The notes under the pieces were generated by a model. It was not told the DNA's origin and ran no database searches. It worked only from the letters and a program-made list of their open reading frames with translations. A stretch of DNA of 64,000 bases, from IMG/VR virus record IMGVR_UViG_3300006923_000016, positions 1 to 64,000 of that record. One strand, 5' to 3'. The DNA is from a virus. The position numbers and the translations under genes were made by a program. Below are positions 918 to 64,000 of this stretch, one piece after another. Each line of letters starts with the position of its first letter. Positions within the stretch are counted from its first letter, which is position 1.

Positions 918-980
918 TAGTAAGATAGACACGAACCCTGGATAGACCGGAGTTCAGACTTCCCAAAGGTGGAGGACAAC

Positions 981-2299: not shown

Positions 2300-2304
2300 C
2301 AAAA

Positions 2305-5266: not shown

Positions 5267-5330
5267 GATTTCAAGGTCAGTTGGTGAGTAGCCTCACTGG
5301 TCCCCTTCCTACTGGTATCACTTATTGCAC

Positions 5331-8695: not shown

Positions 8696-8701
8696 TAACA
8701 T

Positions 8702-8775: not shown

Positions 8776-8784
8776 ACATAAACA

Positions 8785-8961
8785 ATGCTTGTCATTTATC
8801 TAGTTTTAGTTACACTACTCGTTGCAGTAAGCGGTATTACGATTTGGCTTCGTGAAGATACAACCGAAGAGGAAATCTTTTGGACCCAATTACTCTATTG
8901 GCAGACCATACTTTTGATGGTGTTGGCTATAGCATTAGCTATCGTGATATTGCTAGCCTAA
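8785..8961 (+). CDS. Two-helix small membrane protein (58 aa)
   Basis: An unbroken 58-codon frame beginning MLVIYLVLVTLLVAV, then a polar linker WLREDTTEEEIF, then a second hydrophobic helix (about residues 41-57). The shape is a hairpin of two transmembrane segments with an acidic loop. It starts 9 bases after tRNA-Val with no clear ribosome site, like the gene at 147. A role as a small holin-like or host-membrane-acting protein is possible but unsupported. Confidence 0.6.
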   Translation: MLVIYLVLVTLLVAVSGITIWLREDTTEEEIFWTQLLYWQTILLMVLAIALAIVILLA

Positions 8962-8977
8962 ACCTAAAAGGTATAAT

Positions 8978-9310
8978 ATGGATGATAAAGAAGAACTAGG
9001 TCCGAAGATACACAGTAGAAGAGCCCCTTCGGGTATGCGAATCTTCACTGTCTGTCGACAAGCGGACGAAACAGGCGTTAGCGGTGAAGGAATCATCGCT
9101 GAAGGAGTAGAGTGGGGAGACGGTAGTGTAAGCCTTAGATGGTTGACACCGTGGCCCAAAGGAAGCATCGTCTATTGGCATACAATGCAAGACTTTCTTT
9201 CCGTTCACATCCTCCCTCACATGTCTAATGGAACTATCATTACCTTTGCCGACGGCGAACAGGTAGTGTATGGAACTCCACCTAAAGAAGAAGTTCCTCC
9301 GGAAGAATAA
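8978..9310 (+). CDS. Unknown phage protein (110 aa)
   Basis: ATG 8978 follows AAAGG at good spacing. The middle contains GVEWGDGSVSLRWLTPWP, reminiscent of small phage proteins with a VxWxDGxVxLRW segment whose function is unknown. The C-terminus is acidic and Pro/Glu-rich. It is probably a small beta-barrel-like fold by pattern. Its stop overlaps the next start (TAATG). Confidence 0.6.
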   Translation: MDDKEELGPKIHSRRAPSGMRIFTVCRQADETGVSGEGIIAEGVEWGDGSVSLRWLTPWPKGSIVYWHTMQDFLSVHILPHMSNGTIITFADGEQVVYGTPPKEEVPPEE

Positions 9311-24007: not shown

Positions 24008-24292
24008 ATGACAGATACCGAAAAGAAAGAAACAGCCTTCACCGTTAGGTTTGCGGAAGGTGAGGGGTTTAACCTCGATAACCTTGGAGCTAACCTACAG
24101 ATGGCTGAGATGGTAGCTATGATGGATGCTTGTGGACGACAGATGCTACACAGCCGCCTATCTACAATAGAAAAGGCTCTCCAGCTACACTCTGGGCTGC
24201 TTAAGCAAGTCCTTGCCCTCATTAATCCTCCTGAGACTGAAGATGATGTCCTACCTCCTTCAGAGACTGAAGAGGTAACTAAGGAAGAATAA
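24008..24292 (+). CDS. Unknown small acidic protein (94 aa)
   Basis: Helical with a Glu/Pro-rich tail. Overlaps the ribonucleotide reductase start by one base (TAATG). No motif recognised. Confidence 0.6.
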   Translation: MTDTEKKETAFTVRFAEGEGFNLDNLGANLQMAEMVAMMDACGRQMLHSRLSTIEKALQLHSGLLKQVLALINPPETEDDVLPPSETEEVTKEE

Positions 24293-26268
24293 TGGGAAGA
24301 TTTGATGGCTTTCGTTTATCTGACAATTTCCTAGCAAGGTTTGAAGGCAAACAACCCCAATGGGGACCGCTAGGATACGTTACCTTTAAGAGAACCTACG
24401 CACGTAGGCTCCCTAAGGGTGGAACAGAAGAGTTCTGGCAAACATGCAAGAGGGTCGTTGAAGGAACCTATTCAGTTCAACGAAACCACTGCAAGCAGCT
24501 AGGTCTTCCATGGAATGGACACAAGGCTCAGCATTCAGCACAACGAATGTTTGATCTGATGTGGCAAATGAAATGGCTTCCTCCGGGTCGGGGACTGTGG
24601 ATGATGGGGACTGAGTTCATTGAAAAACATGGCTCAGCAGCCTTAAACAACTGCGGTTTTATTAGCACAAGAGATATCAAGAGCGACTTCTCGTTTCCAT
24701 TTATTTGGTTAATGGACATGTCCATGTTGGGCGTAGGGGTTGGTAGCGATACAAGAGGTGCAGGAACCGTAACTATTAGGGAACCCAAGCGTACCGATGA
24801 GATTTTTCTCATTCCAGATACGCGTGAAGGGTGGTACGAGGCAGTAAGAATTGTCCTCAATGCCTATGTCGGTAAAGGAACAATCCCAAGCTTCGATTAC
24901 ACCGCCATCCGTAAGGCTGGAGAACTCATCCACGGGTTTGGCGGAATTGCCGCAGGCCCAGGCCCACTAAAGCAGCTAATTGAGATTGACATCTCCTATG
25001 TCTTGGATCAATTGCCTGGAAAACTTATCACCTCTGAAGCTATCACTGACCTTCTCAACTATATTGGGAAGTGTGTGGTAAGTGGAAATGTGCGACGTAG
25101 TGCTGAATTAGTTCTAGGTAACCCTGAAGACAAGAACTTCTTGTCTCTTAAGGACCCCGAGACTAATGGAAAAGCACTAGCAGACAGGCGATGGGCATCA
25201 AACAATTCTGTCATCGTTAATACTTTGACAGACTTCTCGGATCTCGCTTGGCGTACCCAGAAGAATGGAGAGCCTGGTTACTACTGGCTAAACAATGCAC
25301 GAGCCTTTGGGCGAATGATTGATATGCCAGACTATAGAGATCATCGAGTAATGGGAGCCAACCCTTGTGTTGAGCAACCCCTAGAACACGGTGAGCTTTG
25401 TAACCTTGTTGAAAACTTCATGGCTAGGTGTGACTCTCAGGAAGAATTCCTTGAGGTGTTGAAGTATTCCTATCTCTATGCAAAGACTGTTACTCTCATT
25501 CCCACACATTGGGAGATAACTAATGCAGTTATGCTTCGCAATAGACGTATTGGTTGTAGCCTCAGTGGCATCACAAGAGCAAAGAATAAGCTAGGCACAG
25601 GAAAGTTTATCCAATGGCTAGACAAGGGCTATAATCGCATCAGAGAGCTCGATAAGATCTACTCTGAATGGTTGTGTTGTCCTGAATCTATTAAGGTCAC
25701 TAGCGTTAAGCCTTCCGGAACTGTGAGTCTGCTACCTGGTGAACCGCCCGGTGTTCACTACCCACATTCTGAATACTACAATCGAATCATTCGTATTGGA
25801 GTTCAGTCTCCCCTCATCCCAAAGCTGGAGGCTGCGGGATATTATATGGAGCCAGACACCTATGCTCCTAATTCTATCTGTGTTTACTTCCCTGTAAGGG
25901 AACAGGACTTTGATAGGTCTAAGACTGAGGTGTCTATGTGGGAACAGTTAGAGCTTGTAGCATTGCTGCAGTCTTTCTGGGCAGACAATATGGTTTCAGC
26001 TACTGTTACATTCAATGAGGTAGAAGGCAAGCAGATGAAGCATGCCTTGGAGATGTTTAGTCATAGACTCAAATCAATCTCCTTCCTGCCATTGAAGGAC
26101 CACCAATATGAGCAAGCTCCCTATCAGGAGATTACTGGAGAGCAGTATCTCTCTTTTATCAAGAGCTTGGATCGTTTGGATCTAGATGACAGCGTTCATG
26201 AACACACTGAACGTTTCTGTGATACTGATGTTTGTGAGATTAAGGCCTTTACATTACAGAATCGTTAG
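24292..26268 (+). CDS. nrdJ: Class II (B12-dependent) ribonucleotide reductase
   Basis: A 658-residue monomeric adenosylcobalamin-dependent reductase of the Lactobacillus leichmannii type. Landmarks: GRGLWMMGTEF then ALNNCGF (first redox Cys, about residue 119), VSGNVRRSAELVLG near 265, NPCVEQPLEHGELCN near 358 (radical Cys and Glu, then the second redox Cys), KPSGTVSLLPGEPPG near 476, and a C-terminal Cys pair in RFCDTDVCEIK that would relay electrons. It makes dNTPs without oxygen but needs host cobalamin. No glutaredoxin or thioredoxin gene is seen in the window. A terminator follows. Confidence 0.92.
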   Translation: MGRFDGFRLSDNFLARFEGKQPQWGPLGYVTFKRTYARRLPKGGTEEFWQTCKRVVEGTYSVQRNHCKQLGLPWNGHKAQHSAQRMFDLMWQMKWLPPGRGLWMMGTEFIEKHGSAALNNCGFISTRDIKSDFSFPFIWLMDMSMLGVGVGSDTRGAGTVTIREPKRTDEIFLIPDTREGWYEAVRIVLNAYVGKGTIPSFDYTAIRKAGELIHGFGGIAAGPGPLKQLIEIDISYVLDQLPGKLITSEAITDLLNYIGKCVVSGNVRRSAELVLGNPEDKNFLSLKDPETNGKALADRRWASNNSVIVNTLTDFSDLAWRTQKNGEPGYYWLNNARAFGRMIDMPDYRDHRVMGANPCVEQPLEHGELCNLVENFMARCDSQEEFLEVLKYSYLYAKTVTLIPTHWEITNAVMLRNRRIGCSLSGITRAKNKLGTGKFIQWLDKGYNRIRELDKIYSEWLCCPESIKVTSVKPSGTVSLLPGEPPGVHYPHSEYYNRIIRIGVQSPLIPKLEAAGYYMEPDTYAPNSICVYFPVREQDFDRSKTEVSMWEQLELVALLQSFWADNMVSATVTFNEVEGKQMKHALEMFSHRLKSISFLPLKDHQYEQAPYQEITGEQYLSFIKSLDRLDLDDSVHEHTERFCDTDVCEIKAFTLQNR

Positions 26269-40841: not shown

Positions 40842-41593
40842 TTGTAGGTGATCATATCTATGATGACTACATTCAGGGCACAATTGATGAAGCTAATGAG
40901 GGTGGCCCAAGGTTCAGGGCAAACGAATATCTAGCGAGAACAGAACAGGGAGGCGCGGCGTTCGTTAGAGACGCTGTGGCCTCCTTTTCTCATGTTAATC
41001 ACTCCAACGTTGACTACATTAGAACGTCTATCAGTCGCATTAAGCGCTTTCAGAATCAAGAGACAAAGGAAACTCTCCTTACTGTTGATGACTTTGAAGA
41101 TCACTACTTCGAGACTGATAAGTGTAGAGGTTATACACATGACGCAGCTATTGTATGGGATGACAGCAGGTGTGAAGATTCATACCCGTGGGGAGACGCC
41201 CTAACTACTCTTCACCCTGAGGCCTTAACCGTAGTTGATAGCGTCCGCGCCAAGAGCTGGGACACACCCTTCACCTGCTACATTAAGATGACACTAAGTG
41301 ACTGGGATGGATACAGGCCCAAGCATGCAACATTAATTCTAACTAGCTCTAGAGCTGTCTCTCTTTATGAGCCTCGCAAACCTCTTCGAGTCTATAATGT
41401 AAATGAAATCGACCCCATTGATCCTATTGGAGCAGGCGATGTGTTCCTTAGTGTGTTTGTAACCATACTTCTCGAAGGATGGGGCGAGGATAAGGCAATT
41501 CGAGAAGCCATACATTATGCCAGTAAGTCAGTGACTTACCATGGCTGCCGTATCCCGAGGCGAGACCGTGCCAGAACATTTAGTACTGTTTGA
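40823..41593 (+). CDS. PfkB-family kinase, HldE kinase-domain type
   Basis: A 256-residue sugar kinase. ILVVGDHIYDDYIQG at the start and RTEQGGAAFVRDAV near 40 match the HldE/RfaE N-terminal domain (VVGD..LD.Y...GGAANVA), and DPIGAGDVFLSVF near 202 is the PfkB catalytic GAGD motif. HldE kinases phosphorylate heptose 7-phosphate. It is shorter than usual (about 310), mainly by losses in the middle. The nucleotidyltransferase half of HldE is a separate gene at 7093. Confidence 0.8.
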   Translation: MGHRILVVGDHIYDDYIQGTIDEANEGGPRFRANEYLARTEQGGAAFVRDAVASFSHVNHSNVDYIRTSISRIKRFQNQETKETLLTVDDFEDHYFETDKCRGYTHDAAIVWDDSRCEDSYPWGDALTTLHPEALTVVDSVRAKSWDTPFTCYIKMTLSDWDGYRPKHATLILTSSRAVSLYEPRKPLRVYNVNEIDPIDPIGAGDVFLSVFVTILLEGWGEDKAIREAIHYASKSVTYHGCRIPRRDRARTFSTV

Positions 41594-42395
41594 TTTTGAC
41601 GGAACTCTTACCCTGCCTAGAGAAGCAATAGATTCAGCTGCGCTCAAAGCTCTTTATAAGCTTTGGGAAGCTTGTTCTACTGGAATCGTTACTGGTTCCA
41701 CTATTGAACATGTTGAAGAACAACTAGGTAGCTACCTTAAAGACCCCAAATATACAGAAATGTGGGAAGACATGCTCTTCCTGCCATGTAATGGAACCCA
41801 GCAATGGGGTTGGGAAGCTGATGTTCAAGAGTTCAGGCTCATTAGAGGTGCCAACATGATTGATAAGCTAGGTGAGTATAACTATAGACGTCTCATTAGC
41901 TATGTCCTAGAGCTTCAGTGTACTCTCATCCGAAGGAATGAATCCGTACCCCTTACTGGAGAGTTCATCCAGTATAGAGACTCAATGGTGAACTGGTGTC
42001 CCATTGGTAGAGCAGCTGGTACTGCCTACCGTAAGCAGTTCAAAGAGCTTGACGCTAAGCATAACATCAGGACTCAATACCTCCGAGACCTTAATGCTTG
42101 GCTTGCCAAAAGAGAAATCGAAGTAACCTGTGCTCGTGGGGGAAATACTTCATTTGACATTTATCCTACTGGCTGGAATAAGTCTTATGTTCTAGATCAC
42201 TTAGACGGTGGGGACTATGATATCTGGTTCGTAGGGGACAGATGTACCGGTGACGGCAACGATAAGGCCCTGTATGATGTCCTTCCAGAGGGTCGTCGTT
42301 GGGAAACAACAGGCCCTAAGAACACAGTAAATATCATCTTGAAAGAGATACTCCCAAGAGTAGAAAATAATGAAACAACATCCTTCGATTACTAG
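41568..42395 (+). CDS. Eukaryotic-type phosphomannomutase (HAD family)
   Basis: A 275-residue protein matching HAD-type phosphomannomutases along its length: VLFDFDGTLTLPRE near residue 5 (two catalytic Asp), IVTGSTIEHVEEQLG near 38, FIQYRDSMVNWCPIGR near 135, and GGNTSFDIYPTGWNKSY near 197, then FVGDRCTGDGNDKALY. It turns mannose 6-phosphate into mannose 1-phosphate for GDP-mannose. GTG 41568 has GAGG seven bases upstream; an in-frame ATG at 41541 does not. Next to a cupin isomerase. Confidence 0.87.
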   Translation: MPEHLVLFDFDGTLTLPREAIDSAALKALYKLWEACSTGIVTGSTIEHVEEQLGSYLKDPKYTEMWEDMLFLPCNGTQQWGWEADVQEFRLIRGANMIDKLGEYNYRRLISYVLELQCTLIRRNESVPLTGEFIQYRDSMVNWCPIGRAAGTAYRKQFKELDAKHNIRTQYLRDLNAWLAKREIEVTCARGGNTSFDIYPTGWNKSYVLDHLDGGDYDIWFVGDRCTGDGNDKALYDVLPEGRRWETTGPKNTVNIILKEILPRVENNETTSFDY

Positions 42396-52673: not shown

Positions 52674-52872
52674 CACACTTAAGCGCGCGCCGACGTTAGT
52701 CGGACGCTACACTTGGGCCTCAGGCTCATCTAGAGTTACGACTCACCACTTCAAGGCTCATGAGCACTGCATCTGCTGGGATATAGAGACTGAGGTTCAG
52801 ATCGCAATAACCCTGGGTGCTCTTGTGCTTACTAAGCATCTTCACTTCTACCTAGGAGCCATCAATGATTGA
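52657..52872 (+). CDS. Small protein of the M-h-h-h-S set (71 aa), array gene 5
   Basis: Begins MIFLSNTLKRAPT and ends LTKHLHFYLGAIND, close to the end of array gene 4. Starts inside gene 4. The middle has Cys-Trp-Asp and hydrophobic strands (IAITLGALVLT). Confidence 0.62.
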   Translation: MIFLSNTLKRAPTLVGRYTWASGSSRVTTHHFKAHEHCICWDIETEVQIAITLGALVLTKHLHFYLGAIND

Positions 52873-53353
52873 TTTATATACTTCCGAAGGTTACTTTACG
52901 CAGACTCGACGAGTCCTTGATCTACTATCAAAAGGAAACACCGAAGAGCTCGCGAACTTTGAGCTAAGCCCTCTCAATCACCCCTATTGGTCTCCATACT
53001 TCCTTCCATTTGAGGATGAAGTCTATGCCATCAATTTTGCCAAGACTCACACCTATATTATCCTCGAAGAGACTGGTGAATTTACTTGGGCTCAAGCGCT
53101 TTGGGAACATGAACTCCCCACACGCAAAAAAGCTCCCCGTACCCACGAGGAGCCTTGCTTTTTGTGCATGCCAGGGCTTACGGTCTGGTCGAACCGATGG
53201 GTTGCTTCAGACCCCGATCAGTGTGCCTGGTACATAGGGATAAAGATTATGTCCGATGATAACTTTCTAGAATCGCGAGGCGTGCCTCTGTACCCGTTAG
53301 GCGTACAGAATGCTCTGCTACCTCCGTCTGCCGTAGCAAACCTAGTTGGGTAA
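52865..53353 (+). CDS. Unknown protein ending the plus-strand array (162 aa)
   Basis: ATG 52865 overlaps array gene 5. Aromatic and acidic (HPYWSPYFLPFEDEVY), with CFLCMPG in the middle. Its 3' part contains a bidirectional terminator-like hairpin (53126-53163) and overlaps the minus-strand gene at 53247 by 107 bases. Function unknown. Confidence 0.55.
   Translation: MIDLYTSEGYFTQTRRVLDLLSKGNTEELANFELSPLNHPYWSPYFLPFEDEVYAINFAKTHTYIILEETGEFTWAQALWEHELPTRKKAPRTHEEPCFLCMPGLTVWSNRWVASDPDQCAWYIGIKIMSDDNFLESRGVPLYPLGVQNALLPPSAVANLVG
53126..53163. terminator. Bidirectional terminator-like hairpin
   Basis: Stem gctcc (53132-53136) with ggagc (53149-53153), six A residues on its left and a T-rich run on its right. 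Read on the minus strand it is GC stem plus TTTTTT, a good intrinsic terminator for the minus-strand operon. It lies within the plus-strand gene at 52865. Confidence 0.6.
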
Positions 53354-53462
53354 CTTGGTCTACTGTTACGAACTTCGTGATAGCAGTGAGAATGCTATTT
53401 ACAGCAGACTCTAGAGCCCTGACTCGTCTTTCTAAGTCTAGGTATTCATTAGTGGTTGGCAT
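53247..53462 (-). CDS. Coiled-coil small protein (71 aa)
   Basis: Helical with heptad-like hydrophobic spacing (LERRVRALESAVNSIL) throughout. Last gene of the minus-strand operon; the final 107 bases oppose the plus-strand gene ending at 53353. Possibly soluble partner of the membrane proteins just upstream. Ribosome site weak. Confidence 0.55.
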   Translation of the reverse strand: MPTTNEYLDLERRVRALESAVNSILTAITKFVTVDQVTQLGLLRQTEVAEHSVRLTGTEARLAILESYHRT

Positions 53463-53768
53463 TTATAGTAGGTCTCCATCGATCTCCTCTTCAGTGATCG
53501 TTATTGTTGCGCCTTGAGCATCAAGGTCGGCGTTGTATTGATGGTCAGGAAGGAAGCTGGTATGCTTTTCAACAACATTAGCTCCAAAATAAGCAGCCCA
53601 TAAAAGGGTAAGCACGGCAGCCCAAGTAGATTCCCCAATCAATACCCAAGTAAAGTTAACACCCAAAGCAACAGCACTAGCACTGGCTAACGTAGGAGCA
53701 ATAAGCATAGCAGTAGCAAGGCTAGTTAAAAGCCAAGCTGCTCTAAGCTTTCTATTCCCTCGTTTCAT
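53463..53768 (-). CDS. Two-helix membrane protein, holin-like in shape (101 aa)
   Basis: A basic start (MKRGNRKLRAAW), two hydrophobic segments (about residues 12-35 and 39-63) and an acidic soluble tail of about 35 residues. This is the general shape of a class II holin, but no lysin is seen beside it, so the role remains open. Confidence 0.55.
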   Translation of the reverse strand: MKRGNRKLRAAWLLTSLATAMLIAPTLASASAVALGVNFTWVLIGESTWAAVLTLLWAAYFGANVVEKHTSFLPDHQYNADLDAQGATITITEEEIDGDLL

Positions 53769-53770
53769 AG

Positions 53771-54100
53771 TTAAGATCTATCGTGTTGGTCCTTCATCAT
53801 CTGCTTAAGCTCAAGGAGCGTAGCTTCAATGTGAACAAGCCGAGAACTCACCTCTACAAAGGCTTCCTTTTTAACAGTGTGTTCTTCTAGGTTGGTAAAC
53901 TTTAATTCAAGTGCCTGAATCTTTAGATTTATCTTATTGTGAGTAGTAGTAGCATCCTTTTCATGCTTGTCTAGCTGTGTCTCAACAATAGCGTCCATGT
54001 CTGCCGTAAAGCTTGACTTAAGCCTGTAGTAGATTGTAAGCAAGCCGCCAAACAGTCCGACAAGACCAATAGCGCTAGTTCCGATTGTAATAGGCTCCAT
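53771..54100 (-). CDS. Membrane-anchored coiled-coil protein (109 aa)
   Basis: One N-terminal transmembrane helix (IGTSAIGLVGLFGGLLTIYY), then about 75 residues of coiled coil (LKIQALELKFTNLEE). AGAGGGGA precedes the ATG. The shape resembles haemolysin XhlA or inner-membrane spanin components; that is a shape match only. Confidence 0.6.
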   Translation of the reverse strand: MEPITIGTSAIGLVGLFGGLLTIYYRLKSSFTADMDAIVETQLDKHEKDATTTHNKINLKIQALELKFTNLEEHTVKKEAFVEVSSRLVHIEATLLELKQMMKDQHDRS

Positions 54101-54123
54101 CTAGTATCCCCTCTGTAAGACGA

Positions 54124-54444
54124 TCAAGACCAACTCGAACCACATCTGCATGTTGTTTTCGCATTAGGGTTATTAAATTGAAACCCCTTACTGAAGGGCT
54201 CATCAATGTAATCAATCTCAGTGTCCTCTAACAAAGCATATGAATGACTATCCACACACACCGTCAGATCCCCGGCACTAAAGACTATATCCTCTTCGTC
54301 TGGCTCATCAAAATCTAATGCATAACTATATCCAGAACATCCACCACCCCTTACGGCTACCCGTAGGGCTTTCCCTTGGCATTCAGAATCTTCTTGCATT
54401 GTCTGTAAGATTGTTGTCGTTGCTATTTGAGTTAGGCTTATCAT
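54124..54444 (-). CDS. A-type iron-sulfur carrier (IscA/ErpA/HesB)
   Basis: A 106-residue protein with the three family cysteines: Cys36 in RGGGCSGYSY, Cys99 and Cys101 in TTCRCGSSW. LRVAVRGGGCSGYSYALDF and the later FQFNNPNA are standard for the family. It binds a cluster and hands it to target enzymes. Candidate clients are the Cas4-like nuclease at 36432 and host proteins. Confidence 0.9.
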   Translation of the reverse strand: MISLTQIATTTILQTMQEDSECQGKALRVAVRGGGCSGYSYALDFDEPDEEDIVFSAGDLTVCVDSHSYALLEDTEIDYIDEPFSKGFQFNNPNAKTTCRCGSSWS

Positions 54445-54450
54445 ATAATT

Positions 54451-55608
54451 TTATTCCTTAAGTAGGCGAGAAAGCTCTTCTAGTCTTTTTTCTGGACGTT
54501 TTAAGCCAGCTACTACCGTATAGACACGAAGCTTGCCCCTACCAGATTCATAGATTCCTCTGTGAACAAGCGCATCTCCGACAATATTAGCAGTCGTGTC
54601 GAAGCCAAATTCAATAGCATCCATTAATCCCTCAACTTCTGCGAAAAGATCTCTACCTCCGACGACTACAGTAGCTACGCCCTCAGCCGTACTAAGGTCA
54701 AAGCCTCCTGCAAGCAAAGTCTTTCCAAGGTTATCCTTCAGTGCCTTACTAATAGAGGTATGAGAAGATACATCCCTTACGGTAGTAATGCCTAATAGCA
54801 TACAACCACTTAGGGAGAGTAGGGAGTCGAAATCAGCAGGATCAAAAGACGTGTACTCACTGTTCTTGATTGTAATAACGTTAAGTGTATGGAAAAGTCC
54901 AGCCACAGTGTTATTGACGGTCGGCCAGAACTGCTTGACTGTCATACGAGGATAAAGCTTCTTAATCTTATCGTTATCAACAATTAATAGTGGAGCAATC
55001 TGACCTACTTCTGCCATAGTGCACAGATCAGTCACTAGATTCTTAGCATTCTGAGCTACTCTAGGAGAGGCACACTCTCCTGAGGTTGGTAGAGCAATCA
55101 CTACGCCAGTTCTTCGTTCAGCATCAACATGACCAATATAGCGTAAATATCTCTGAGCCAGGTCGATCAAAACTTTACAAGATCCACCGCCAGATCCACC
55201 GCCTGCTCCAGCAGCCACGAAGATCCTATCAACCTTACCGAAGGTCTTAAGCATTAGGTTGTAGATGTCCTGATCACAGGATTCAGCGGCCAGTCGACCA
55301 GCTTCCATGTTCTTTCCAGCACCCTTCAAGTCACCACCTAGATGAACCTTCTGATTCTCTGGTAGCTGTATGTGATGAAGGTCGTGCTTAGCTGTGTTGA
55401 CTACAAGAGCTTTCTTATATCCAAGCTTATAGAAAGCCTCTACTAAGCGACTACCACCCTGGCCACCACCTAGGAAGGCAATTTCAATAGAGCCACCATG
55501 AGTAGACTCAAGACCGATGTCCTCATCTTCAGGGATTTCAAAATCTTCAATAGGAAGATCAGGAATACCTAAATCAAAGTCATCTTCTTCGTTAAATTCT
55601 TCAGTCAT
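54451..55608 (-). CDS. FtsZ/tubulin-superfamily GTPase
   Basis: A 385-residue protein. After a 38-residue acidic N-terminal tail, LGGGQGGSRL (47-56) matches the first nucleotide loop, VNTAKHDL follows, and VAAGAGGGSGGGS (131-143) is the tubulin/FtsZ signature loop. SFDPADFD (254-261) resembles the T7 synergy loop of FtsZ (DxAD) that completes the GTPase site of the neighbouring subunit. So a filament-forming GTPase is likely. It differs from classic FtsZ and phage PhuZ in the signature. GGAG lies eight bases before the ATG. Confidence 0.82.
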   Translation of the reverse strand: MTEEFNEEDDFDLGIPDLPIEDFEIPEDEDIGLESTHGGSIEIAFLGGGQGGSRLVEAFYKLGYKKALVVNTAKHDLHHIQLPENQKVHLGGDLKGAGKNMEAGRLAAESCDQDIYNLMLKTFGKVDRIFVAAGAGGGSGGGSCKVLIDLAQRYLRYIGHVDAERRTGVVIALPTSGECASPRVAQNAKNLVTDLCTMAEVGQIAPLLIVDNDKIKKLYPRMTVKQFWPTVNNTVAGLFHTLNVITIKNSEYTSFDPADFDSLLSLSGCMLLGITTVRDVSSHTSISKALKDNLGKTLLAGGFDLSTAEGVATVVVGGRDLFAEVEGLMDAIEFGFDTTANIVGDALVHRGIYESGRGKLRVYTVVAGLKRPEKRLEELSRLLKE

Positions 55609-55647
55609 AGTAGTGACTCCTTTTTGTAGAGTAGAGTAGAGCTCTTA

Positions 55648-56622
55648 TTATACCAGATCAGTCTCTATCATCATCTTTACTAAGTCGTCAACGGTGTGCG
55701 TTGCCTCCCAGCCTAGTACCTGGTTAATTTTAGTTGGATTGCCTAACAGATTGGGGACTTCAGATGGCCTCATGAAACGTGGATCGTAATCCACATACTT
55801 TTCCCAGGCCGAATCGTCCAATCCAGCGGATCGAATTGCACTGCGTAGGAAGTCTCGAACTGAGATGGACTTGCCTGTAGCAACAATGAACTCGTCTGGC
55901 TCATCTGCATCCAGCATAAGATCCATAGCCTGCACATAATCTCCAGCGAAACCCCAATCTCTTCGGGCGTCAATGTTTCCAAGGCTGATTGTTTCCGCCT
56001 TTCCCTGTGCGATTGCAGAAATTCCAAGAGTAATTTTTCTTGTAACGAAGTCGCTCCCACGACGAGGTGACTCATGATTGAAGAGAATCCCGTTGCAGGC
56101 AAAAAGACCATACGCTTCGCGGTAGTTTTTAACAGCCCAGTAGGCTGCAAGCTTAGCAACACCATAGGGACTCCTAGGGTAAAGAGGACTGTCTTCAGTG
56201 TAGCCAGTAGAGGGACAGTCAAGTCCACCAAATAGCTCACTAGTAGATGCCTGGTAGAACCTAGTCTCGGGAGAGTTCCTCCGAATGGAATCCAAGACTA
56301 CAATGACCGCTCTAGCATCTGTATCAAAAGTCTCTAAGGGTTCCTTAAAGGATTGCCCAACGTGAGATTGAGCAGCTAGATTGAAGTACTTCTCAGGCTT
56401 ATACTCTTGAACTATCCAGTTGATAAATGAGGCGTCCTTTATGTCTCCAAAGCAGGAGATGAAGGATGGGTGATCAGCAAAAAGGGTTGTATTTTCCCCC
56501 AGCCCAACCCGGGTACTTTTTCTCCTGTCGATCCCGACGACCGTATAGCCCTTGGCTAGAAGATGCTCGGCCAAATACGACCCGTCCTGACCCGAAATGC
56601 CTGTTATCACAGCTGTTTTCAT
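55648..56622 (-). CDS. gmd: GDP-mannose 4,6-dehydratase-like epimerase/dehydratase
   Basis: A 324-residue short-chain dehydrogenase. TGISGQDGSYLAEHL near residue 7 is the GxxGxxG NAD(P) site, QASTSELFGG near 120 and SPYGVAKLAAYW near 150 give the catalytic Ser/Tyr/Lys region, and NHESPRRGSDFVTRKI follows, all typical of Gmd. It makes GDP-4-keto-6-deoxymannose. AAGGAG six bases before ATG 56622 supports this start, though the frame stays open to a second start at 56781. Confidence 0.88.
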   Translation of the reverse strand: MKTAVITGISGQDGSYLAEHLLAKGYTVVGIDRRKSTRVGLGENTTLFADHPSFISCFGDIKDASFINWIVQEYKPEKYFNLAAQSHVGQSFKEPLETFDTDARAVIVVLDSIRRNSPETRFYQASTSELFGGLDCPSTGYTEDSPLYPRSPYGVAKLAAYWAVKNYREAYGLFACNGILFNHESPRRGSDFVTRKITLGISAIAQGKAETISLGNIDARRDWGFAGDYVQAMDLMLDADEPDEFIVATGKSISVRDFLRSAIRSAGLDDSAWEKYVDYDPRFMRPSEVPNLLGNPTKINQVLGWEATHTVDDLVKMMIETDLV

Positions 56623-56781
56623 TTTAATCTCCTTAGCAAGTAACCAAGCCTTAAACTCCTCTAAGCCAGAGCATCGCTTTCGAGAGAAATGAACACTAAG
56701 CCCCTGGAAAGTAGTGAAATGCTTGCCACAACAATCAAAACCATCCTGTCCACTGACTCCAGTTACTATTGCTGTCTTCAT
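56623..56781 (-). other. In-frame duplicated gmd start with zinc-finger-like insert
   Basis: Translation from ATG 56781 (AGGAG six bases upstream, TAATG overlap with the aminotransferase) begins MKTAIVTGVSGQDG, nearly the same as the true gmd start MKTAVITGISGQDG 53 codons later. Between them is FDCCGKHFTTFQGLSVHFSRK, a Cys-Cys-His(-Cys) zinc-finger-like piece, and a short helix. The frame is open throughout, so either a 53-residue longer protein is made or a scar of an insertion or fusion is seen. Confidence 0.6.
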
Positions 56782-57890
56782 TACTGACTCCTGTACGCTT
56801 CTACGGCTGCAATGACTTCATCAACCTGTTCATTGGTCATTGTTGGGAACACAGGCAGACTAAGGAGACGATCACAAAGATCTCGGGCCACCCTGAATCC
56901 TCCCTTATCCTTTGTAAGATAGGGAGTAGAGTCAGTGATAATCGATGGATAGTGTAAACCACAAGCAACACCAGCCTCACCTAGCCAAGCCATAAGGGCC
57001 TCTCTATCCTCCTTACTATCACACTTATACTCATACAAGTGAAAGACAGGAACAGCTATTGGATCAATGAATGGAGCCCTATTCCCAAAGGCTTTATCAT
57101 AACGCGCAGCAACCTCTCGTCGCCTAGCATTCCATGAATCCAAAGACTTAAGTGCATGTCTGAGCTGAGCAGCATGAATAGAGTCCAAGCGATGGTTATG
57201 TCCAATAATTACATGATCATATTTTGAAGCGCTTCCTTGGTTAATGATTTGTCGAGCAACTTCAGCCAAACCAGGGCTTTTGGTAATAATTGCTCCACCC
57301 TGTCCACAGGTTCCTAAATTCTTAGCCGGGTAAAAGGACGTACAAGCTATATCACTTAACTCACCCACCCCATAGCCCCCAGACCGGGCTCCAATCGCCT
57401 GTGCAGCATCTTCAATAAGAGCGACGCCGTAGTCCTTGGCTAGCTCTGCAAAGAGCTTCATATCAACCATCTGTCCATATAGATGAACGGGCATGATGGC
57501 CTTAATACTCTTCGCATCCTGTTTAGATAGTTCCTTGATACACCCATCAACACTCATTAGGTAGGTAGACGGATCTACATCCACAAACACAGGCGTAGCA
57601 CCTGCTGCGGTAATAGCAAAGGCGCTTGCAATGAAAGTGTTAACGGGAACAAGAACTCTATCCCCAGGCCCAATCTCCAAGGCGCGTAGAGCAACCTCTA
57701 GAGCTGATGTTCCACTACTACAACCAATAGCAAAATCTACACCCATGTATTCGGCAAACTCTTCTTCAAACTTATTCAAAAACGGACCACCAACAACCCA
57801 CCACGATCGAAGCACTTCTAGTACATCGTTTTCGATAGCTTGCTGAATGGGGAGATACTGACCCTTAAGGTCAACGAAGGGAACTGTCAT
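56781..57890 (-). CDS. DegT/DnrJ/EryC1-family sugar aminotransferase
   Basis: A 369-residue PLP enzyme: GCSSGTSALEVALRAL near residue 57, FVDVDPSTYLM near 102, EDAAQAIGA near 160 and SFYPAKNLGTCGQGG near 185 with the catalytic Lys. It transfers an amino group to a keto-sugar nucleotide. Next to gmd it could make GDP-perosamine, or work with the Gfo/Idh oxidoreductase on a 3-keto sugar. Confidence 0.9.
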   Translation of the reverse strand: MTVPFVDLKGQYLPIQQAIENDVLEVLRSWWVVGGPFLNKFEEEFAEYMGVDFAIGCSSGTSALEVALRALEIGPGDRVLVPVNTFIASAFAITAAGATPVFVDVDPSTYLMSVDGCIKELSKQDAKSIKAIMPVHLYGQMVDMKLFAELAKDYGVALIEDAAQAIGARSGGYGVGELSDIACTSFYPAKNLGTCGQGGAIITKSPGLAEVARQIINQGSASKYDHVIIGHNHRLDSIHAAQLRHALKSLDSWNARRREVAARYDKAFGNRAPFIDPIAVPVFHLYEYKCDSKEDREALMAWLGEAGVACGLHYPSIITDSTPYLTKDKGGFRVARDLCDRLLSLPVFPTMTNEQVDEVIAAVEAYRSQ

Positions 57891-58077
57891 TATAATAATT
57901 CCTTAATATGATACGAACCTTCTCGATAAGCTCTAAGTTAGCCCAAAGCTTACCTTTGGTTGCATCAATTGCTAATTGATTAAAAGGTCCTCTCAAGGGC
58001 AAGTTATGTCTTAGATACTTGCAAGCCATATCGGCAAACTCAACCAGCAGAGCAATTTCTTCAGGAGTGAGTTCCAA
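57871..58077 (-). CDS. Small helical protein (68 aa)
   Basis: TTG start at 58077 with only a weak ribosome site. Helical (LTPEEIALLVEFADMAC), with a basic C-terminus. Overlaps the aminotransferase start by 20 bases. No motif recognised. Confidence 0.5.
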   Translation of the reverse strand: MELTPEEIALLVEFADMACKYLRHNLPLRGPFNQLAIDATKGKLWANLELIEKVRIILRNYYNDSSLR

Positions 58078-58085
58078 AACTAATA

Positions 58086-58829
58086 CTACTTCTTATAGTC
58101 CCCAGTTCTTCCGGGGAGATTTCCGTAAAGGCCGAACTCATATCTAAAGTCCTCCGGCCAATACTCTCGATCAAGCATCCATGTTTGTGCATCGGTTGAA
58201 TGTTTAAAGTTTCGAGGGATAGGTGCTAATTCCATACCAGGACCTGGTCTACATTTCTTGGGACCAAAGCCATGATGGTAATGAACTAAATAATCATCAA
58301 CAACATGGGCAGGAATGGTTTCCCCATCTCCCATATCTGATGTTGGTAGGCAATGCCTATTAATTCCATCTGGAAATCTTACACCATTGTAGGCAGTCCT
58401 ATCAAATAATCTAAGCTGTGAATCTGGAAACCAAGTAGGAGCATAAGCCTTTCTTGAAAACAATGAATATCTAGGAAAACGATAAGCTGAAGATAACCCA
58501 CTTAGGGCTAGGGTGGAAAGGTTTGCGCTATCACTAAGGCATTCGTCAGCACCTAGGAGAAAAACCCAATCAGTGGAAGACATATCTATAAGAAGATTTA
58601 ATCGACCTGACTGATCCCAACTGTCATCATACATCCGGCGTACCTTTTGCGGCTTACTTATGTAGGTTACCCGAGAATCTTTCTCTGCAACTTCAGCTAG
58701 ATATTTTTCTGTTCCATCTGTACTACCGCCATCCAAAACTATTACATGGTGACAATGCCTTGTAGCATTATGTAATGATGCCCTAATATAAAACATCTCA
58801 TTCAACGTCAAAACTAGACCTGTAATTTT
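58086..58829 (-). CDS. Family 2 glycosyltransferase
   Basis: A 247-residue GT2 enzyme: LVLTLNEMFYIRASL at the start, VLDGGSTDGTEKYL near residue 34 and WVFLLGADECL near 88, the acidic metal site. ATG 58829 overlaps the upstream stop (ATGA). The C-terminal part has His/Tyr-rich segments. Transfers a sugar from a nucleotide donor to an unknown acceptor. Confidence 0.85.
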   Translation of the reverse strand, partial: KITGLVLTLNEMFYIRASLHNATRHCHHVIVLDGGSTDGTEKYLAEVAEKDSRVTYISKPQKVRRMYDDSWDQSGRLNLLIDMSSTDWVFLLGADECLSDSANLSTLALSGLSSAYRFPRYSLFSRKAYAPTWFPDSQLRLFDRTAYNGVRFPDGINRHCLPTSDMGDGETIPAHVVDDYLVHYHHGFGPKKCRPGPGMELAPIPRNFKHSTDAQTWMLDREYWPEDFRYEFGLYGNLPGRTGDYKK

Positions 58830-59668
58830 CATACTTGAGCCTCTAATATAGCCCACTCTTTGGGATGAGGGTTAATAGGAAACCACAAATCTTGAAAATG
58901 ATTAGGGTGTCGTCCGTTGTATCTTTTAAGATTAGGTAAGCTTTTCTTCATCTCGTAGTCGAACTCATTAAACTTTTCAGGAAGCTCTACTTCAAATTCT
59001 TTATCGTTCGTATACCAAGCCTTTCCTAGGATGCGTCTCATTCCCATAGCGCGAGCTGACCGTACCCATCCATAGTGCCAAAGTGGAATAGATAGGCTAA
59101 GCATTTCTTTACCCCCATAGTTATGAAGAGTAATCTCTTTTCCGTTAACCCTTCCAACTACATCACAAACAGGTCTACGGTTATCGTCTGTGCGGAAGTT
59201 CTTAACAGCAAAACCACTAGAACGATGACCTATTCGACAGTGACGCTTATAGAATGCAGGCCCCTGTGCAATATAGCGAGGCGTCCCATAAAAATGAGTA
59301 ACCGGAAGGGAGGCAAATTGTGTTCCCCCTTTTCCCAACTGGTCTTTAAGGGTAGCCATGTGGTCTTCATGAATACCCTCGTCAGCATCCACAGCAAAAA
59401 CCCAATCACAGGAACTCATCTGGAAGGCTACATCCCAGGCCTTCTCTTGCCAGTGACGATTAAATTCAAATCCATATACCTTATAGCGAATGCGTCCTCG
59501 ATACTTTGCTGCCAAATCTTCAACAATACCAACAGTATTATCTTGTGATAGGCCGACACTAATAGAAACCTCATCACAACCAACCAAGGCTTGCTCAATA
59601 GCAGCCTCCAGCCCGTAGTCCATAATTTCTACGTTCCGGGCTTTCATAATAGCTGTGATAGAAGTCAT
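58829..59668 (-). CDS. Family 2 glycosyltransferase
   Basis: A 279-residue GT2-like protein: ITAIMKARNVEIMDYGL at the start, SQDNTVGIVEDL near 41 and WVFAVDADEGIHED near 88 (DxD-type site). The rest is Trp/His/Arg-rich. Paired with the next GT2 by an ATGA overlap. Confidence 0.83.
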   Translation of the reverse strand: MTSITAIMKARNVEIMDYGLEAAIEQALVGCDEVSISVGLSQDNTVGIVEDLAAKYRGRIRYKVYGFEFNRHWQEKAWDVAFQMSSCDWVFAVDADEGIHEDHMATLKDQLGKGGTQFASLPVTHFYGTPRYIAQGPAFYKRHCRIGHRSSGFAVKNFRTDDNRRPVCDVVGRVNGKEITLHNYGGKEMLSLSIPLWHYGWVRSARAMGMRRILGKAWYTNDKEFEVELPEKFNEFDYEMKKSLPNLKRYNGRHPNHFQDLWFPINPHPKEWAILEAQV

Positions 59669-59670
59669 AA

Positions 59671-60594
59671 TTAGATAGCACTCACTACAGCATATCCATG
59701 CTCAAAACTAATTCGGTTTACTTCCTCAGGATTAATCCCTGCAACTAGACTTAACCAAAAATCTAATTCGGCCCTGAGTGGCTCGGAGTGATCTTTTACT
59801 TCAAGAACCTTAAGAATACCAGGCTTATTTTCACCAATAATTCGTTGATCCCAGAAGGCTAACTCCTTAGGCTTAGACATGTCATACTCTATGATACCAT
59901 CAGTTCCTAGAATACTTATTTTTCTTACCTTTTCAGTATGAGCCCAACTGTAGTTAACAAGGGCATCAACCCCTGACGCCAGCCTATACAGAGAAGAGCC
60001 GGCCACCGAGATAGACTCATTGTCTAGCGATGTTCTTGACAAAAGAACAGGGTTATCTCCTGTAAGGTACTGGATAATACTAAGGTCATGAGGCAAGAGG
60101 TCTAGCTCTACACCACACTCTTGAAACTTACCCCAGTTAAGACGACTAATATTAATAGCCTTAACCTTTCCTACCTTTCCACTATCTATAAGCCTTTTAA
60201 GCTCAAGGATCTCAGGACTGAAAACGAAAATATGACCAACACAACAAGTAAGGTGACTAAAGGTTCGACTTAAAGAAAGCAACTGACTAGCATCACTATC
60301 AGACGCAGCAAGAGGCTTCTCTACAAAAATATGTTTACCCGCCATTAAGCAAAGCCTAGCGATAGCTAGGTGTGTGGACGGAGGGGTAACAATAGCTACA
60401 GCATTAACCGTATTGTCACTAAGGATTGTTTCAATAGAAGCAACCTCCACCCCTGGATATTTGTCAGCCTGAGCTTGGGCTAGATCTGGGTCCAGATCGC
60501 ATACATACTTAAGGTCAGATATAGTGTTAAGGTTTCGAGTAATGTTGGGGCCCCAATAGCCACAACCAATAACAGCAGTCCCTAGGTTTTTCAT
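59671..60594 (-). CDS. Gfo/Idh/MocA-family oxidoreductase
   Basis: A 307-residue Rossmann enzyme: VIGCGYWGPNITRNL (residues 8-22) binds NAD(P), IVTPPSTHLAIARL near 70 and IFVEKPLAAS near 90 are family landmarks, and DLLPHDLSIIQYL near 165 carries the active-site Asp/His. In glycan clusters such enzymes (WbpB/WlbA type) oxidise a sugar nucleotide at C3 ahead of a DegT aminotransferase. Its start overlaps the GSCFA gene (ATGA). Confidence 0.88.
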   Translation of the reverse strand: MKNLGTAVIGCGYWGPNITRNLNTISDLKYVCDLDPDLAQAQADKYPGVEVASIETILSDNTVNAVAIVTPPSTHLAIARLCLMAGKHIFVEKPLAASDSDASQLLSLSRTFSHLTCCVGHIFVFSPEILELKRLIDSGKVGKVKAINISRLNWGKFQECGVELDLLPHDLSIIQYLTGDNPVLLSRTSLDNESISVAGSSLYRLASGVDALVNYSWAHTEKVRKISILGTDGIIEYDMSKPKELAFWDQRIIGENKPGILKVLEVKDHSEPLRAELDFWLSLVAGINPEEVNRISFEHGYAVVSAI

Positions 60595-61559
60595 AGACTG
60601 GTAGCTCCTTTAATTCTGTATTTACGCAAAAAGATCTTCATCATAGCTGAGATGACATGAGGCTTTACGTGACGATTATCATCTGTAAAGGGATCTTTGA
60701 TTGCTTGGGTAATAATGTCATACGATTCAAAATATGTTGTGTTGTTATAGCTTTGACAAAAATATTCAGCAGCGGTGCGTAACGTACACTTACTGAGCCC
60801 ATTAGCCACCCAGGTATTAACGTTACGGCGGAAAGTTGCATGTAGAGGAACAGGACTTACACTCAAAATAATCTGAGCTGAAGGGTTGTGCTCTTTAAGG
60901 AGCTCACGACACCGATTGAGATCACCCAAAACTTCATCAACCGTTTGAATATGGAACTCATGTATTTTTGGATCATAAAGCCCTATGCTAACTGGAGGCA
61001 TAAGACTAAAAGTAGAGTGATCTCTCGAATCCCTCCAAGTTTCCGTTAGTCCTAGGGTAAGAATAACTACCTTAGCTGTTGTAAGGGCCTTTCTAGAGGC
61101 ACTAACATGTTTTTGGAAGTCAATCTCTTTAGACTCCCAGTCATAGTATGAGTACTCTCTAAAAGGATCAATAGCCCTTTTATCAGGATGTCTCCACCAA
61201 CGCTGAACTGGATTAAAATTACCCAAAGAGTACTCAAAGATTTGTCTCATTGAAGCACTGTTGTAAACCCTATTCCATCCACAACTAGCATGGAGACAAT
61301 TGTGAGGTTCAGTTATCAAATAGTTGTATTTGGCTTTGCGCAAGAAGGTTGCAATATTTCTAGCGAAACAAGACCCCATACTTGTAATTGGGGTTCGCTG
61401 ATCAATTAGATGGCATCTTCCATACTTAGCAAACTGATGAATATCTATTTTCCCTGGATTAATAAGATCAGTCAACTGAAAACGACCACCAGAAAAAGGG
61501 ACAAGCCTATTACTCAGCTCTGTCGTCAACCCACTCTCCTCGCTTAATTGTAGTTTCAT
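60591..61559 (-). CDS. GSCFA-domain protein
   Basis: A 322-residue protein with the family name string GSCFARNIATFL near residue 62 and LTLGLTETW near 167, LSVSPVPLHAT near 231 and a late DDNRHVKP segment, giving an SGNH-hydrolase-like Ser, Asn and His set. GSCFA proteins occur in polysaccharide clusters; they may act as sugar O-acetyl esterases or transferases. Overlaps the upstream gene by 50 bases. Confidence 0.82.
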   Translation of the reverse strand: MKLQLSEESGLTTELSNRLVPFSGGRFQLTDLINPGKIDIHQFAKYGRCHLIDQRTPITSMGSCFARNIATFLRKAKYNYLITEPHNCLHASCGWNRVYNSASMRQIFEYSLGNFNPVQRWWRHPDKRAIDPFREYSYYDWESKEIDFQKHVSASRKALTTAKVVILTLGLTETWRDSRDHSTFSLMPPVSIGLYDPKIHEFHIQTVDEVLGDLNRCRELLKEHNPSAQIILSVSPVPLHATFRRNVNTWVANGLSKCTLRTAAEYFCQSYNNTTYFESYDIITQAIKDPFTDDNRHVKPHVISAMMKIFLRKYRIKGATSL

Positions 61560-62262
61560 TTGATTGTCGAATTAGCTCAGTTAGCATTGTTGCTGTTAGC
61601 TGGTCTAGCAGTGGAAGGTTCTGCATAATGCAGTGTCCGCCAATAACACCAGGGAACTTATTCTGAATATCATAATCGCTAGCTTGAAGCTTCCAAATCT
61701 GACTAACAAAGTCATAGTCCGCCTGTGCCGTGTCGCATAGTTGTTGAGCCATTTGAGTCCAGGCAATGAGGTACCCAACCAAAGTTGTTTGGAGGATCTT
61801 AGCTAGCTCTGCGTTCTCTGGTTTGTTACCCATCCATCGTGGCTTAAACCCAGCAGCACTTAGCTTAGCCATAAGGTCAGGCTTAAAGTGGGTTCCACTA
61901 ATGAACTTAGGATACTTGAGCATGTCCGAAGTCATCTGATCATTAGCATGCTTTCCTAGTACTGGGGAATGGTATACGAAAGACTGGGTCTGTTCCTGAA
62001 TACGACGCGTAGTTCCAACGGGAACAGTAGCGTGAATAACTGTATAGAGGGGGGTATAGGTTCGAATATATTCTGAAACAATATTCTCAAATCCCTTTAA
62101 CTCTCCAGGGATACAGATATGCATGCAAAACACATTCTCATCCCTTTTGGGCGGATGAAAGCCCTGAGCTGGGTCGATAGCTTTTACGTCATCACAAGCA
62201 GCAGCTAGCAAATGATAAATAGGATTACCAATCTCGCCTAAACCAATAACAAGATGTTTCAT
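61510..62262 (-). CDS. Short UDP-sugar dehydrogenase-like protein
   Basis: A 250-residue protein. IGLGEIGNPIYHLL near residue 6 is a Rossmann loop, VIHATVPVGTTRRI near 74 and NAELAKILQTT near 154 are UDP-glucose-dehydrogenase landmarks, and FPGVIGGHCIM near 203 matches the GGHC active-site Cys (Cys211). The C-terminal UDP-binding domain, about 150 residues, is missing, so it may have a changed substrate or be inactive. Confidence 0.75.
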   Translation of the reverse strand: MKHLVIGLGEIGNPIYHLLAAACDDVKAIDPAQGFHPPKRDENVFCMHICIPGELKGFENIVSEYIRTYTPLYTVIHATVPVGTTRRIQEQTQSFVYHSPVLGKHANDQMTSDMLKYPKFISGTHFKPDLMAKLSAAGFKPRWMGNKPENAELAKILQTTLVGYLIAWTQMAQQLCDTAQADYDFVSQIWKLQASDYDIQNKFPGVIGGHCIMQNLPLLDQLTATMLTELIRQSNETTIKRGEWVDDRAE

Positions 62263-62897
62263 TAATAGCTCCTTCTATTGGGACGCCGACATTTCTCCCA
62301 CTCTGCTTCTAGTCCAGAAATGAAACTATCATCTCCACTAGGGAGATTCCACTTCTTAAAGCTATAAGTGTTCTGGCCTAGCGGCTTGCCGGGAATATAT
62401 TTAGCAAGGGGTGGAATGTCTTTAACTATTGTAGAGTTCATAGCAGTCATACTATAAGCGCCCACCGTAGTAAACTGATGAGTTATAACCCCAAGCCCAA
62501 CATTGGCTGCTCGCATGATGCGAGTCCAGCCTCCTAAGCATACGTTCGTACTTAAGATAGCGTATGGCTCTAAGTAACAATCGTGACTAATATGGCAACG
62601 AGCCATGACATAGCAATCATCCCCAATAAAGGTAAGGTCTTTCATTGGAGAGTTCACAGTCGTAAACTCCCTAATGACAATACGATCCCCAATAACAATC
62701 TTACCCGGAGATCTGTATACAGGATTAAGCTCATACTTATCACTAGAGTGCTCAGCCCATTGACCTATACTTACGTGTGGACCAATGTGACAATTTTCCC
62801 CAATGAACGTATTGCCTTCAATAACACAATAAGGACCGATATAGGTACTTCTAGGAACACTAATATGAGGAGCAACCAAAGCAGTAGAATGAATCAT
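62262..62897 (-). CDS. LpxA-like left-handed beta-helix acyltransferase
   Basis: A 211-residue hexapeptide-repeat protein: IGPYCVIEGNTFIGENCHIGPH near the start shows the repeat, then GDRIVIREFTTVN near 70, RCHISHDCYL near 100 (His105 aligns with the catalytic His of LpxA) and HQFTTVGAYSM near 140. Residues fit LpxA rather than the WbpD type. It lacks the C-terminal helices. In this cluster it probably acylates a sugar nucleotide. Confidence 0.82.
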   Translation of the reverse strand: MIHSTALVAPHISVPRSTYIGPYCVIEGNTFIGENCHIGPHVSIGQWAEHSSDKYELNPVYRSPGKIVIGDRIVIREFTTVNSPMKDLTFIGDDCYVMARCHISHDCYLEPYAILSTNVCLGGWTRIMRAANVGLGVITHQFTTVGAYSMTAMNSTIVKDIPPLAKYIPGKPLGQNTYSFKKWNLPSGDDSFISGLEAEWEKCRRPNRRSY

Positions 62898-62906
62898 AGT
62901 TTACCT

Positions 62907-64000
62907 TTAGGCTGTCAAATCTACTTCTTTTGTATCCCACCAGCGAACCATTTCAGTTACTAGGCCAAGCTGTCCTACAAATGAACCAGTCTTCTTTAAG
63001 TCTACAGTGAGGCGACCCTCTACAACTTCACCAACTTTAAGCTCCTTAGGCAATTCGTATAACCCATAGCTTGGATCAGACGCTTCCTTTCCGTTCTTAC
63101 CAACAGCTCTGCTGAACCGAACATGAAGCTTATTGTCGGAAGCGTAAACTTTTCCACTATCGTTTGTAACTTTGAAATAGATATAGCGCTTAGAGCTTCT
63201 CTTGGTAATCTTAATGATTTCGATTTTCATATAATTCTCTCCTTTAAGGATAGGCTTAGTCTCTTCTAAAATCACCAACCTATCTGGGACAGTGATATTC
63301 AGAAGGCTTTTAGCCGCTTGGTTATAGGTATTATTTTCCCGAATCCATTTCGCAGCAGCAAGCCCTACTTTATGGGCCTTGTCTTGCTCACGGTAAACCT
63401 GACGCATCTTCTGGGCCAGAGCGGGGACATCGATCTCTGCAAATTGTCCGAAAACTTCAGACCCATTATTCTCTGCCTGAAGCCAGCCAGGAATTCTAGC
63501 ATCCTGAAGACCCTTAGGATTAACCCAATAGCTTACACCCCTGATACAAATGTCTTCTAAAGCACTCCACTTACATAAAATAACTGGAAGTCCAGTAGAC
63601 ATTGCTTCACGGGGAGGAAGGCCGAAACCCTCCCCAGAAGAAGCAAAGACCAAACAGTCGACATTCTGCAACAAGCTTAGCATCTTAGGCTGGGATAGCC
63701 TCCCATCTATGATCTTTTCATTAGGCCTTAATCGAGGAACGTTTCCCCCAAAAGAAGTCTTAATGATAAGCTCCACATTTTTGTCTTTAGGAAACGCTGT
63801 CCGAAAAGCTTGAAGGGTAAGATCGGCGTTTTTTCTAGGACAATCCCATCGAGTATTGCTATAGAGTAAAAAGCGAAATGGTCTATCCTTAGTGAGCGAT
63901 CTCTTAAGTAGTGGCCAACGTTCAGGATCAACTCCAAGGGGTGAAACCTTAATAGGTATTCTTACTCCAGAGTCTTCAAAGACAGTCTTATTAAACTCAG
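62907..64000 (-). CDS. GT4 glycosyltransferase with beta-sandwich domain, start outside window
   Basis: The frame is open to the window edge, so the N-terminal (acceptor) domain is missing. Visible parts are the donor domain, with RFLLYSNTRWDCPRKN, then DCLVFASSGEGFGLPPREAM (the EX7E-type nucleotide-sugar site of GT4) and SALEDI. The last 107 residues form a separate beta-rich module with LPKELKVGE and LGLVTEMVRWW. An ATG at 63230 with AAAGGAG upstream could make this module as its own protein. Confidence 0.82.
   Translation of the reverse strand, partial: EFNKTVFEDSGVRIPIKVSPLGVDPERWPLLKRSLTKDRPFRFLLYSNTRWDCPRKNADLTLQAFRTAFPKDKNVELIIKTSFGGNVPRLRPNEKIIDGRLSQPKMLSLLQNVDCLVFASSGEGFGLPPREAMSTGLPVILCKWSALEDICIRGVSYWVNPKGLQDARIPGWLQAENNGSEVFGQFAEIDVPALAQKMRQVYREQDKAHKVGLAAAKWIRENNTYNQAAKSLLNITVPDRLVILEETKPILKGENYMKIEIIKITKRSSKRYIYFKVTNDSGKVYASDNKLHVRFSRAVGKNGKEASDPSYGLYELPKELKVGEVVEGRLTVDLKKTGSFVGQLGLVTEMVRWWDTKEVDLTA

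Follow-up and report, generated by a model that had tools for sequence, protein, structure and literature searches.

In this study, we describe a tubulin gene from a large phage, and a clade of phage tubulins to which it belongs, in which the layout of the tails is mirrored: an acidic N-terminal tail carries a conserved short peptide, and the C-terminal tail is absent. The gene lies in the window, a stretch of 64,000 nucleotides corresponding to positions 1 to 64,000 of the IMG/VR record IMGVR_UViG_3300006923_000016. It is near certain that its 385-aa product is a genuine member of the tubulin superfamily of GTPases, and the protein would be expected from its sequence to hydrolyse GTP and to polymerise. 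Being a phage tubulin is in itself ordinary; what is new is a clade with the mirrored tail layout in phages without the known tubulin-dependent systems. The clade is wide and apparently undescribed, since no description of it was found in the open-access literature. We tentatively propose, with a probability of about 0.45, that the protein forms a cytomotive filament of the lytic cycle, with a role like that of PhuZ but in phages that lack a nucleus. The features of the gene and its product were as follows:

54451..55608, minus strand: phage tubulin gene, 385 aa, ATG start (Pfam, PDB sequence and fold matches, AlphaFold2 model, at least 94 viral relatives)
55492..55608, minus strand: N-terminal tail, acidic and for the most part disordered, residues 1-39, with 16 D/E and no K/R (AlphaFold2, sequence)
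55549..55566, minus strand: conserved N-terminal short motif IPDLPI, residues 15-20 (18 of 19 non-redundant clade members)
55450..55470, minus strand: T1 nucleotide loop GGGQGGS, residues 47-53 (alignments)
55180..55209, minus strand: T4 tubulin signature loop GAGGGSGGGS, residues 134-143 (sequence, alignments)
54823..54849, minus strand: T7 synergy loop SFDPADFDS, residues 254-262 (alignments)

The open reading frame scored above the curated Pfam cut-offs for the Tubulin domain (PF00091, E=4.8e-10, 40.5 bits against a cut-off of 33) and for the TubZ-like_C domain (PF22453, E=2.3e-6, 28.1 bits against 26), and below the cut-off for the FtsZ_C domain (23.7 bits against 27). A sequence search of the PDB returned RepX/TubZ of B. 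cereus as the top match (7e-12), followed by many FtsZs. Because the Pfam cut-offs were passed, the PDB gave matches and at least 94 viral loci encode relatives, these features lie far above chance. The sequence-only reading had assigned the protein to the tubulin/FtsZ superfamily, and the assignment was borne out by the Pfam and PDB matches and by structure comparison of the predicted fold.

An AlphaFold2 model built from a two-row alignment was poor (pLDDT 48.8) and was set aside; the model built from a 42-row alignment reached a pLDDT of 89.9 and a pTM of 0.88, with residues 1-24 disordered (pLDDT <50). Structure prediction had been named beforehand as a check, and it returned a tubulin fold: the best Foldseek matches of the model were TubZ protofilament subunits (E=5e-23, TM about 0.75), and FtsZ and CetZ came next at about 1e-20. 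GAGGGSGGGS at residues 134-143 and DPAD at 256-259 were found exactly where they had been reported, and mapping onto FtsZ, TubZ and PhuZ confirmed that the nucleotide loops and the synergy loop are intact. In the T7 loop, D256 and D259 are equivalent to D209 and D212 of FtsZ, so that both catalytic aspartates of FtsZ are present. N43, T44, the T4 glycines, N165 and N186 of E. coli FtsZ are matched by N71, T72, G136-G138 with G140, N212 and N232, and the position of FtsZ N207 is occupied by serine, likewise in phiKZ PhuZ. Across the 42 family members the loops contain invariant residues, D256 among them.

The T4 loop had been described as an unusual signature. It does differ from that of FtsZ, with serine for threonine and glycine for the second threonine, but only mildly so: phiKZ PhuZ and roughly half of the relatives share the serine at the position of FtsZ T108, whereas the three closest ones carry threonine. 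The last 24 nt of the loop (55180-55203, minus strand) consist of a perfect 12-nt tandem repeat, two copies of GGCGGTGGATCT, which encodes GGGSGGGS; relatives encode the loop without this repeat.

The two ends of the protein set the clade apart. It had been claimed that an acidic N-terminal tail replaces the C-terminal tail, and this held: an acidic extension of 39 residues precedes the first beta strand, and a short helix behind the last strand closes the chain. Close members of the family also stop at this helix, whereas FtsZ, PhuZ and TubZ continue beyond this point for 51, 33 and 62 residues, respectively. The expression [IVLM]P[DEN][ILM]x[ILMV] was found in the N-tails of 18 of the 19 non-redundant group 1 proteins (the clade that holds the 385-aa protein), the one exception being locus L070 with MDIPMP. 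In shuffled N-tails it occurred 0.3 times on average and three times at most in 2000 runs, a figure that flatters the motif, as the expression was derived from the same 19 sequences. The motif always stands 21-28 residues before the core, though the tails vary in sequence and in length (29-98 residues), and its proline column stands at 18 of 18 and its aspartate column at 15 of 18. The near-fixed spacing and these strong columns may be taken as further signs of a functional peptide. The N-tail shows no basic or obvious amphipathic membrane-binding character, for which reason protein docking is the better guess for its role, and the conserved peptide is probably the hook by which the filament holds its cargo or anchor. 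The C-tail of TubZ is required for GTPase activity and partner binding (PMC5322520), which makes its loss or replacement here functionally meaningful. An N-terminal attachment is known elsewhere in the superfamily, as Odinarchaeota have an FtsZ with an N-terminal membrane anchor (PMC12583498). For FtsZ, the direction in which the membrane bends and the rotation runs depends on the side where the anchor exits (PMC5979038). The mirrored layout, with a putative docking peptide at the N-terminus and none at the C-terminal end, predicts the side of the filament on which partners bind.

A scan with the single protein recovered nothing beyond the same phage, and relatives surfaced only through stepwise alignment building and rescans of IMG/VR. 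These gave at least 94 loci with a relative, of which 80 were kept (29-67% identity, on contigs of up to 481 kb), and each of 15 large carriers has one tubulin copy. Elsewhere matches were few. The phage record collection yielded only Bacillus phage G gp138 (27% identity over 61%), the plasmid search only TubZ-like genes of Bacilli (25-30% identity), and the scan of bacterial genomes a single weak match on a short contig of a Mollicutes MAG. The relatives fall into two groups. Phylogeny had likewise been named beforehand as a check, and a tree with FtsZ, TubZ and PhuZ placed the 385-aa protein in a separate clade, group 1, with support of 100/98 whether or not PhuZ was in the tree, separated from FtsZ by a 100/100 branch. 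The second, sister-like group, with proteins of about 450 aa, was supported at 100/100 in the tree without PhuZ. With support of 92/64, group 1 falls with other phage tubulins and not with TubZ, which leaves the branching order of the two groups and TubZ unsettled. PhuZ fell within the sister group, which was attributed to its long branch, and a second tree was built without PhuZ.

Members of group 2 (L098-L127, e.g. L112:7818-9176) have a different N-tail of mixed charge and a C-terminal extension of their own with the conserved end FGKLVGGVVDRRK. Their conserved neighbours are a sugar epimerase directly upstream and a membrane coiled coil about 2 kb upstream, and a lysozyme-like gene, a helicase and DnaB are also conserved nearby, on contigs of up to 481 kb; candidate partners may exist in this group. 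The top structural match in BFVD to the 385-aa protein, UniProt A0A6J5RW92 from an uncultured Caudovirales phage, has a length that fits this sister group and is only 27% identical to the 385-aa protein. It is annotated as 'FtsZ Cell division GTPase' and, to our knowledge, has no described function.

The source of the window had been read as a phage, correctly so: the window belongs to a virus contig of 78 kb, which matches a section of the 189,645-bp contig IMGVR_UViG_3300025066_000008 at 99.994% identity. The longer contig encodes terminase, portal, major capsid and tail sheath, together with DNA polymerase III alpha, RecA, a DnaG-type primase and a B12-dependent ribonucleotide reductase, a gene content from which the source is judged to be a contractile-tailed phage of lytic type. 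The tubulin gene lies close to the end of a long block of genes that share its strand, in which virion genes (portal, capsid, sheath and terminase) come first and a sugar/glycosyltransferase cassette follows; the replication genes are oriented the opposite way. A position at the end of this late block would fit late expression, of which it is no proof. No convincing tubulin turned up in the phages that are related to this one by their capsid, sheath or terminase gene, three isolates and three long contigs among them, and the gene is therefore regarded as accessory. The named relatives found in this way were only the distant Acinetobacter phage ME3, Moorella phage MTATph1 and Bacillus phage KLEB27-3, none of which has a tubulin; a weak tubulin match in KLEB27-3 fell on a ThiF gene. 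The genes next to the tubulin gene in the window were:

55648..56781, minus strand: GDP-mannose 4,6-dehydratase-like gene, directly upstream (Pfam PF16363, 5.8e-113)
54124..54444, minus strand: A-type iron-sulfur carrier, directly downstream (Pfam PF01521, 1.2e-15)
53771..54100, minus strand: 109-aa protein with an N-terminal membrane helix and a coiled coil (sequence)
53463..53768, minus strand: 101-aa protein with two membrane helices (sequence)

The suggestion that these neighbours include a membrane tether was rejected, as the flanking genes differ around the closest relatives: the iron-sulfur carrier, the membrane coiled coil and the two-helix protein are absent beside the tubulin gene in relatives that are 65-67% identical. 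The GDP-mannose 4,6-dehydratase-like gene is the last of the sugar cassette and stands outside the tubulin system. A sugar epimerase adjoins the tubulin gene both in this phage and in the sister group, and it was rejected as a partner because such genes are common in phages and were clustered by generic similarity. No neighbour is common to all group 1 loci, so no partner was identified, and the carriers are different phage lineages. In the 22 loci of a marine-type subgroup, the gene directly upstream of the tubulin encodes a 628-aa protein of unknown function; 18 of these loci also have the large terminase gene some 3 kb upstream, which links the tubulin gene to the virion block there. In some carriers the gene adjoins lysis or replication genes. 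A promoter scan did no better than shuffles.

In the proposed mechanism, a dynamic cytomotive filament of the kind known from TubZ, PhuZ and FtsZ would arise by head-to-tail stacking: D256/D259 in the T7 loop of each subunit would complete the GTPase site that the adjoining subunit forms with its loops T1-T6. The IPDLPI peptide, about 25 residues from the core, would serve as a docking site for the capsid, a complex of phage DNA or a host protein, in place of the C-terminal tail used by FtsZ and TubZ. The filament would then position or move phage DNA or capsids late in infection, a reading for which our estimate is again slightly short of even. A late role in positioning or transport is proposed because the phage is of lytic type, has no nucleus shell and carries the gene near the end of its late/structural block. 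A function is known for two phage tubulins, PhuZ, which centres the phage nucleus, and phage TubZ, which partitions plasmids. As the clade is widespread in environmental large phages without a detectable PhuZ or TubZ system, it suggests that phage cytomotive filaments are commoner than these cases and have roles beyond that of the nucleus spindle.

That the protein is instead a TubZ-type partition motor, by which the phage in a carrier or plasmid-prophage state would segregate its genome like a plasmid, is unlikely. In its favour, the best PDB and fold matches are TubZ/RepX, the TubZ-like_C domain is present, Bacilli plasmid TubZs are among the nearest annotated relatives, and Clostridium botulinum phage c-st carries a TubZ with a partition role (PMC7950403). 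The partners of such a motor were nevertheless not detected. No TubR-like gene was found in the 190-kb contig or beside the 80 relatives with an HMM of limited sensitivity; plasmid TubZs and phage G do have small upstream genes. There is no iteron array within 4 kb of the gene and no repeat family of more than two copies in window positions 52800-57000, and no tyrosine integrase in 12 large carriers. The lytic-type gene content and the absence of the TubZ C-tail also argue against partition. Centring of a phage nucleus by a PhuZ-like spindle is very improbable. The phage is large and its T4 loop shares a serine with PhuZ, but chimallin was not found in the 190-kb contig (G001) or in 11 other large carriers by a search that did find the phiKZ and Goslar controls, with the caveat that the contig may be incomplete. 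The PhuZ family phrog_4733 gave weak matches to the relatives in L043 and phage G but none to the 385-aa protein up to E=1, and the placement of PhuZ in the tree depends on long branches.

Homology to FtsZ raises two other readings. The protein could be an effector of host division, its filament or N-terminal peptide binding host FtsZ or its adaptors to block or redirect septation, which we consider rather improbable. A D-[ILM]-P core is present in 13 of the 19 N-tails (DIP in 10 of 19, against about 1 in shuffles) and recalls the FtsZ C-terminal peptide LDIPAFLR; the phage peptide, however, lacks the F/L/R residues that fill the adaptor pockets, the likeness may be a matter of chance in a proline-rich acidic motif, and an intact GTPase site exceeds the needs of a simple division inhibitor. 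The narrower idea that the DIP-type peptide is a relocated mimic of the FtsZ peptide, capturing the host adaptors FtsA, SepF and ZipA, is quite improbable. If true, the peptide would sit on the opposite side of the filament and bend or act on the membrane in a sense opposite to FtsZ; in vitro, moving the membrane anchor of FtsZ from the C- to the N-terminus reverses the sense of its action on the membrane (PMC5979038). Least credible of all is a host-derived FtsZ moron that is now non-catalytic or decaying. Superfamily membership and the accessory distribution would fit it, but the ORF is intact, the loops and catalytic aspartates are conserved across the family, and the protein is excluded from the FtsZ clade at 100/100.

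The protein resembles several named systems in part. TubZ/RepX of the Bacilli plasmids (type III partition) is the best sequence and fold match and shares the TubZ-like C-terminal domain and the tubulin loops; at 25-30% identity, the phage protein differs in having the N-terminal motif and no long C-terminal tail, adjacent TubR gene or centromere-like repeats. Bacillus phage G gp138, a putative FtsZ-like protein, is also a large-phage tubulin and the only relative among phage records, but besides its low identity it lacks the N-tail and groups with a plasmid TubZ (100/99). PhuZ of the nucleus-forming jumbo phages, a phage tubulin with the same serine at the T108 position, is extended at the C-terminus and lacks an N-tail of this kind, and chimallin was not found in 12 large carriers of the phage tubulin. 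FtsZ shares the fold, the loops and both T7 aspartates; its linker and C-terminal peptide are missing from the phage tubulin, which has its tail and peptide at the N-terminus instead.

Several further observations were made on these genomes. In phage G (L003:4692-6119) the TubR-sized gp137 directly precedes the tubulin gene gp138, as in plasmid TubZ operons, an arrangement that suggests a partition-type system in a giant phage. The sugar cassette of the window (55648-63776, minus strand) comprises, with the GDP-mannose dehydratase-like gene, a DegT aminotransferase, a GFO/IDH oxidoreductase, a GSCFA protein, a UDP-glucose/GDP-mannose dehydrogenase-like protein and glycosyltransferases, and a phosphomannomutase is encoded at 41541-42395 (plus strand). 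A 658-aa ORF at 24292-26268 (plus strand) holds the N-terminal part of a B12-dependent (class II) ribonucleotide reductase. At 969-2072 (plus strand) lies a fused nucleotidyltransferase-NUDIX gene, adjoined at 2296-3813 (plus strand) by a nicotinamide/nicotinate phosphoribosyltransferase (Pfam); the pair likely encodes a two-step NAD+ salvage pathway. Phages have been reported to use NAD+ salvage pairs against NAD-depleting defences. Finally, in L043 (IMGVR_UViG_3300018080_000002, 4752-9124) the tubulin gene is located within a run of several neighbouring genes that begin with a similar peptide, MRxEYLxEMxxI..., which resembles the shared N-terminal sorting peptides of the internal head proteins of T4-like phages.
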